Shown: in pieces, positions 22,784 to 23,711 of the stretch
Layout of the letters: every line of letters starts with the position of its first letter
How positions within the stretch are numbered: the first letter of the stretch is position 1
Notes under the pieces: generated by a model
Seen by the model: the letters and a program-made list of their open reading frames with translations, nothing else
Database searches by the model: none
Told to the model about the DNA's origin: nothing
NCBI GenBank assembly: GCA_037349315.1
Contig: JBAIAC010000004.1
Coordinates: 31,375,001 to 31,439,000 of the forward strand
DNA: 64,000 bases
Direction of reading: 5' to 3'
Source of the DNA: Chelydra serpentina
Lineage: Eukaryota; Chordata; Testudines; Chelydridae
Position numbers and translations under genes: made by a program

Positions 22784-23711
22784 AATGGAAGAGGTAGTAC
22801 TGGCACTGATACAAGCCACAGCTGCCCAGCAGGAGGCTACCCGTGTCCAGGCAGCTGCCCAACAGGAGGCAGTACGGCTGCAGCAGGAGACCAATCGCCT
22901 GTTGATGGACCAGGCCACTCAAGACCGTACTATGTTTTGGGAACTGGCAAACCAATTGAAGGCCCTTACAGAGATGAACCATGGCCATGATGGGACGCGG
23001 CACATACGGGCCAGCAATTGCCTGCAGAAAATGACAGGGAACGATGACATAGAGGCATATCTCCTGGCCTTTGAGAGGACAGACCTACGGGAGGTCTGGC
23101 CTCGAGATCAGTGGTCTGGCTTCCTCACCCCATTCCTGTGTGGGGAGGCCCAGAAGGCCTACTATGATCTGCATGAAGAGGCTGCAGCAGACTACCCCCA
23201 GCTGAAAGCAGAGATCCTCGCCAGATCTGGGGTAACAACCGCAGTGCGGGCCCAGCAGTATCATGAGTGGAGGTACCAGGAAGACAAAACCCCGCGATCC
23301 CAATTGTATGACCTCATCCATCTCGCACGAAAGTGGTTGCAAACTGAGTCCCGGAGTCCAGAAGAGATACTAGAGGTTCTGGTCATCGACCGATACATGA
23401 GGGGACTACCACCAGACCTTCATGCATGGGTAAGCCAGAATGAACCCTCCACCTATGAAGAGATTGTGGCAATGGTAGAGAGGCGAAGGACGGCGAGGGA
23501 ACTGACCGGACCAGTTAAGGAAGCGGAACCCAGGGTTAAACTAGCAGCACCAAGCCCTAGAGTTCGAGTGACTGGGCCACCAGGAGGGCCCAGGTGGAAA
23601 AAGAGAGTGGCTGAAGGGCCACCAGAGGCCATAAAGAGTCGGTGCACTGAGGGGGAAGAAGATTGTGATGTTAGACTTCCCAAACCAAGAGACCGGGGAA
23701 CATCCATATAG
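22784..23711 (+). pseudogene. Gypsy gag with SCAN-like capsid region
   Basis: Structural polyprotein forming the element's particle. The frame starts at the ATG in ACAATGGAAGAGG (22784) and is open for 308 residues. Residues about 5-45 are a Gln/Ala-rich probable coiled coil. Residues about 85-150 read as the capsid N-terminal part (IEAYLLAFERTDLREVWPRD, FLCGEAQKAYYDL). Residues about 150-240 resemble a SCAN domain: RYQEDKTPRSQLYDLIHLA, KWLQTESRSPEEILEVLVID, GLPPDLHAWVSQNEPS, YEEIVAMVERR. This matches the proposal that vertebrate SCAN domains derive from the capsid of a Gmr1-like gypsy element. The basic C terminus runs into a frameshift before the zinc knuckle. Confidence 0.88.

Follow-up and report, generated by a model that had tools for sequence, protein, structure and literature searches.

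A defective Gmr1-type retrotransposon copy with a SCAN-type capsid lobe in a turtle genome, and a second gag line that is probably nearer to host SCAN domains

The window analysed here, the whole of a 64,000-nucleotide stretch of the genome of the turtle Chelydra serpentina (contig JBAIAC010000004.1, positions 31,375,001 to 31,439,000 of the forward strand), carries between 22062 and 27250 a damaged Ty3/gypsy retrotransposon whose gag frame matches the SCAN domain of host zinc-finger proteins. A sequence-only reading of the window had noticed a SCAN pattern at gag residues of about 150-240 with no zinc-finger gene attached, had described the element as a surviving relative of the SCAN source linked in cis to its own zinc knuckle, protease, integrase and reverse transcriptase (RT), and had proposed a profile search, a structure prediction and a phylogeny as checks. 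The proposal it built on, that SCAN came from the capsid of a Gmr1-like gypsy element, is already in print according to the passages covered of PMC3406341, PMC3424704 and PMC4592553. The parts of the element are as follows.

22062..22678 (+): 5' long terminal repeat (LTR), TGTGAC...GTCACA, 617 bp, inserted in sequence resembling a long interspersed nuclear element (LINE)
22681..22698 (+): primer binding site, two bases 3' of the LTR, read from the sequence
22785..23711 (+): gag open reading frame (ORF), open over 308 amino acids (aa), ATG at 22785, stop codon at 23709-23711
23001..23234 (+): capsid N-terminal lobe, gag residues 73-150
23247..23495 (+): SCAN domain, that is, capsid C-terminal lobe, gag residues 155-237
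23713..23754 (+): CCHC zinc knuckle (nucleocapsid), PF00098 at E 2.1e-4 and 21.7 bits (cut-off 20.8), with the CCHC pattern
23755..24269 (+): protease region, broken by frame changes; tblastn of Chelydra protein P0004 extends to 24269
24654..25703 (+): integrase, with H2C2 at 24654-24830 (PF17921), rve core at 24879-25166 (PF00665) and p58_C at 25602-25703 (PF22938)
25879..26181 (+): putative hAT-like miniature inverted-repeat transposable element (MITE) between integrase and RT, 303 bp, terminal inverted repeats TAGGGTGACCAGA/TCTGGTCACCCTA, 8-bp target duplication GACGACTG on both sides
26183..27250 (+): RT and start of ribonuclease H (RNase H), one in-frame stop at 26399, cut off at about 27250

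In the Pfam search, the SCAN family (PF02023) matched gag residues 155-237 with 70.4 bits (E 1.1e-19, profile positions 4-86 of 90), where its curated cut-off is 27 bits, and the second-ranked family reached E 0.14, so that the score was neither at background nor bettered by another gag family. When the gag was compared with PDB sequences by phmmer, the SCAN domains of MZF1/ZNF42, ZNF24, PEG3, ZNF174 and ZSCAN10 were recovered (E 1.3e-11 to 3.4e-6); the remaining two rows had E 2.2, and these five zinc-finger-protein domains are thus its only confident relatives there. Together with the Pfam score they bear out, far above chance, the SCAN pattern that had been read in the gag. A scan of all six frames of the window found no C2H2 pattern, in agreement with the statement that no zinc-finger gene is attached, and two CCHC patterns, one of them on the element at 23713. 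Similar results were obtained when the gag monomer was modelled with AF2 (AlphaFold2; mean predicted local distance difference test, pLDDT, 83): the model is a two-lobe capsid in which the predicted lobe 1 (residues 73-150) aligns with capsid domains of retroviruses and retrotransposons, while predicted residues 145-241 resemble SCAN. Foldseek ranks 1-6 were SCAN structures throughout (E 7.5e-4 to 2.4e-3, template modelling (TM) score by target 0.64-0.83), which supports the SCAN fold for the monomer model. Of 3398 candidates in a protein database search with the gag, 98 were relatives at E <= 0.001; where a species name is given, it is that of a turtle, a frog, the coelacanth or a ray-finned fish, and the closest named ones are from turtles.

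The element reads in the order 5' LTR, gag, zinc knuckle, protease, integrase, RT. At the left edge of the LTR, homology begins at 22061-22062 in 22 of 29 family copies taken from elsewhere in the genome, the main pieces of which show 92-96% identity; the surrounding LINE-like sequence we take to be of CR1 type, and the primer binding site presumably resembles the complement of the 3' end of tRNA-Leu. In the window copy the zinc knuckle and gag lie in different frames; in P0004, a Chelydra protein with 61% identity to the window gag (99% of the query covered), gag, knuckle and protease share one frame. The protease region is matched by P0030 in two frames near 23930 (tblastn), and its active-site triplet is altered with respect to the D-S/T-G consensus. 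All three integrase families, RT and RNase H scored above their Pfam cut-offs (PF00078 at 26459-26833, E 2.7e-27; PF17919, E 2.2e-21), the upstream part of RT being identified through the turtle protein P0081, which spans the integrase end into RT and aligns to 25359-25880 and again from 26183, on either side of the MITE. Positions 7875-7973, 25879-26181 and 38302-38424 are three copies or parts of this one MITE, with ends like AGGGTGACCAGA. No further RNase H was found past about 27250 by tblastn of P0090, and no second LTR was found in the window, so that the copy has a 5' LTR only and lacks the two LTRs and target duplication of a complete element; this marks the copy as incomplete and not the family as different. 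Because of its frame changes, altered protease site, RT stop at 26399, MITE insert and RNase H truncation, the window copy is dead. The sequence-only reading thus had the order of the linked parts right, but no single open frame contains these parts, and the copy is broken. An integrase upstream of RT, the copia-like order, is the Gmr1 order in the covered part of PMC2774666. Since the integrase (24654-25703) precedes RT (26459-26833) and the gag has a C-terminal capsid lobe of SCAN type, the element is assigned on its domain order to the Gmr1 type.

We also searched the window's own assembly (2.28 Gb); the match counts obtained with the gag, the LTR and the SCAN model are lower bounds. The gag gave at least 128 matches, namely the window and at least 127 others with 88-93% identity, from 4457 first-look candidates, and the LTR gave at least 40 including itself (1621 first-look candidates), the other 39 or more being of full or near-full length with 97-98% identity. 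Some copies of this gag family, called F1 here, have longer open frames than the window copy. Taken together, these results indicate with high confidence that the element in the window belongs to a multicopy turtle family of Ty3/gypsy (Metaviridae) retrotransposons of Gmr1 type, of which it is a defective copy; the C-terminal lobe of its Gag is homologous to host SCAN.

Furthermore, a search of the genome with the SCAN model scored at least 150 rows among 4436 candidates, and these fell into two score groups; the window's own gag was absent from them. All 17 rows that scored over 104 bits were examined, as were 11 of the 133 that scored no more than 95.2 bits. The former are host-type SCAN loci (104.8-140.5 bits against Pfam SCAN), of which six (L004-L008 and L039, including two nearly identical pairs) hold both capsid lobes in a single open frame, an arrangement called 'extended SCAN' (ESCAN). 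C2H2 motifs were found near four of the 17 (four motifs at L040, seven at L042, nine at L043 and three at L047), and none was found in the fetched stretches (3.3-8 kb) of the other 13. The 11 lower-scoring loci (L048-L058) belong to a second gag family, F2. Both lobes were matched at all of them, but the match was only partial at L048 and L053, and at L058 the lobes lie in separate frames. F2-side relatives occur in other turtles, coelacanth, frog and fish. A 2.9-kb piece 3' of one F2 gag encodes the knuckle, the integrase and then RT in one open stretch, and F2 is therefore likewise assigned, from this piece, to the Gmr1 order. About 40 of the 133 lower-scoring rows have open frames of more than 1,600 codons. 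A recent spread of F2 in this genome is suggested by the many F2-type rows that have an identical score (90.5 bits) and open frames of around 1650 codons.

To place host SCAN among these gags, trees were built on different sets of rows. A first tree of F1 gags and host only (76 rows from 124 kept SCAN segments; P0050 and P0079, two of five turtle SCAN-C2H2 models, were too short and had been dropped) had host on the turtle side (97/91), and approximately unbiased (AU) tests on it did not reject the alternatives to that placement. The full-capsid tree had 68 rows and 154 columns: the window, 18 of the 98 gag relatives, 15 of 120 listed F2-side relatives (140 found), six of 33 host proteins, three of which carry a mammal's name, and 28 loci of the same genome. 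A reduced tree kept 46 of the 68 rows, after removal of rows under 115 residues and of three long-branch rows. The tuatara protein P0245, in which Pfam finds SCAN only (134.9 bits), counted as F2 in the 68-row tree and was relabelled host in the 46-row tree after the tree had been seen, and the AU groups were likewise picked after the trees had been seen. F1 formed one side of a branch with 100/100 in both trees, the 17 host-type SCAN loci lay apart from it, and host ESCAN was one clade (100/98) in the 46-row tree. Host and turtle F1 as one clade was rejected on the full capsid (46 rows; log-likelihood 81 lower, p 7e-63) and on the single lobes too (p 0.0012 and 7.5e-5). F1 and F2 are separate Gmr1-type lines in one genome, and host is not inside turtle F1; the rejection shows only the latter, and not that F2 is nearer. 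On the F2 side, host together with the F2 rows other than those labelled frog, fish, sturgeon and coelacanth was also rejected (p 0.00097). Xenopus and a cyprinid among the F2 rows grouped with host, weakly (93/61, 93/82), in the 46-row tree. On the N lobe the host rows formed a single clade (93/89); on the C lobe they did not, but a single host clade was not rejected there (p 0.323). Because of the two rejections host belongs neither in turtle F1 nor in turtle F2; by the trees alone it stays between the two lines.

Distances incline toward F2. The median path from host was 1.99 to F2 and 2.60 to F1 on the full capsid, 1.90 and 2.26 on the N lobe, and 1.70 and 2.45 on the C lobe; all seven host rows were closer to F2 in each of these trees, and midpoint rooting grouped host and F2 every time. 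Against the six full ESCANs of the genome, the window had a median identity of 36.0% (6 pairs), F2 of the same genome 44.2% (66 pairs), all F1 34.6% (114 pairs) and all F2 43.7% (144 pairs). Owing to path lengths, midpoint root and ESCAN identity, F2 is probably nearer than F1 to host ESCAN and SCAN; this is a lean and not a proof. Several results weigh against it and speak for the whole of F1 as the nearest living kin of the SCAN donor. Host with all F1, leaving F2 as one side, was not rejected (p 0.121 on the full capsid, 0.144 on the N lobe), and the best C-lobe tree had an F2 clade without host (95/90). Identity to six SCAN-only rows labelled mammalian was nearly equal, 36.5 and 39.0%. A host SCAN profile ranked the window segment fifth of 89 gag-like segments with 71.4 bits, above the 11 F2 segments of the same genome (58.3-69.5 bits), and the F1-only tree described above points the same way. 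Set against the path lengths, the root, the ESCAN identities and the rejection of host with turtle F1 alone, we consider it unlikely that F1 is the nearer line. The window element is a relative of the SCAN donor and probably not its nearest kin. The idea of a surviving relative of the SCAN source is therefore upheld as to homology, given a SCAN-type lobe in a Gmr1-type gag, but the copy is defective and F2 is probably closer to host; the phylogeny confirmed F1 as a separate SCAN-type gag line and denied host a place with turtle F1, though not with all F1. Whether the donor belonged to one Gmr1-type line, F2, whose descendants persist in turtle genomes, where their open frames run to about 1,650 codons and where ESCAN genes and F1 are present too, is in our judgement an even call.

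Another reading holds that turtles recaptured SCAN from F1 in recent times, and that the SCAN-C2H2 and SCAN-Myb proteins predicted in Chrysemys and Chelonoidis are the outcome. The SCAN segments of seven such models (P0088, P0090 and P0097 with C2H2; P0061, P0065, P0068 and P0084 with Myb) do nest among turtle F1 gags and not among host rows. However, all seven are deposited gene models, predicted only; they are scattered over about six places among the turtle gags, some of them weakly supported, and some carry RNase H or gag-linker pieces. The Myb parts, moreover, match with 34-72% identity a Myb-like ORF beside a DNA transposon of the window. Because of these pieces and Myb matches the models look like transposons joined by the gene predictor, and we did not accept them as fresh captures; recapture is quite improbable. 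That the window is a single domesticated host SCAN gene, as its gag frame alone open over 308 aa beside a broken pol might suggest, can hardly be entertained in view of the 5' LTR, the pol in cis, the many other gag and LTR copies genome-wide and the host-type SCAN loci lying apart from F1.

Gag has its two-lobe capsid between a long N-terminal helix and a CCHC nucleocapsid. In intact copies it would form the particle that houses the copying of RNA by RT, and contacts between Gag molecules would be made by the C-terminal lobe, in a way comparable to the dimerisation of SCAN zinc-finger proteins. SCAN would have passed from gag to host. As a kind the window element is ordinary, the general link between SCAN and gag having been known since 2011, when Emerson and Thomas reportedly derived SCAN from a Gmr1-like gypsy capsid and are said to have speculated that host SCAN proteins meet capsids. 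It is a clear case in which a capsid lobe and a host transcription-factor domain can be recognised as members of one family. Two Gmr1-type gag lines and ESCAN genes in one genome may narrow the SCAN donor to a single line, and the same genome offers natural partners with which a meeting of host SCAN protein and capsid could be tested. Should F2 be the donor line, then donor line, cousin line and captured genes would stand together in one genome, and mixing of host SCAN with capsid would be directly testable. Neither two SCAN-type gag lines with host ESCAN in one turtle genome, nor a line like that of the window as probably farther from host SCAN, was found in the passages of literature covered, and the one paper found that treats turtle, SCAN domain, retrotransposon and gag together builds no SCAN model in the passage covered.

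Elsewhere in the window, an open 483-aa DDE_Tnp_4 transposase ORF (13332-14783, +), presumably of Harbinger type, lies near a 191-aa Myb/SANT-like ORF (16495-17070, -), which resembles the Myb parts of the turtle 'SCAN-Myb' models. LINE remains at 690-3635 (+) comprise an endonuclease ORF followed by an RT ORF, each of about 400 aa; their internal repeats, spaced 2.05-2.08 kb apart (pieces of 43-940 against 2117-2992, 80-85%), suggest that the LINE is duplicated or nested. Two tRNA-like copies (12826-12907 and 13150-13231, GATAGCTCAG...GGTTGCGAGTTCAATCC), 93% alike, are perhaps the head of a tRNA-derived short interspersed nuclear element or tRNA pseudogenes. Positions 45933-46397 hold nested inverted repeats, one of 114 nt with 96% complementarity and one of 106 nt with 93%.

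Among known systems, the domesticated gypsy capsids Arc, PEG10 and PNMA2 have a capsid fold that the modelled window gag resembles, and none of them matched the gag in sequence at E 10 in the phmmer PDB search; we take them to come from gypsy lineages other than that of the window element. In zebrafish gypsy elements the covered part of PMC8672886 counts 97 SCAN among 1119 gag genes, and their SCAN model matches lie at the gag position, as in the window; these are fish elements, and the likeness is one of description only. Host SCAN and ESCAN proteins share with the window gag a homologous C-terminal capsid lobe and, in ESCAN, the N-terminal lobe too, whereas the window element has no C2H2 fingers, carries LTR, CCHC knuckle, protease remains, integrase and RT in cis and belongs to a separate clade. 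In frogs, SCAN lies in the gag of more than 50% of Gmr elements, according to the covered part of PMC4131045. The Gmr1-like Ty3/gypsy elements as a whole (GyDB Gmr1 lineage, frog Gmr1) are like the window element in having the integrase 5' of RT and SCAN in gag, and differ from it in that the window copy is defective and has its nearest relatives, in the trees, among turtles.
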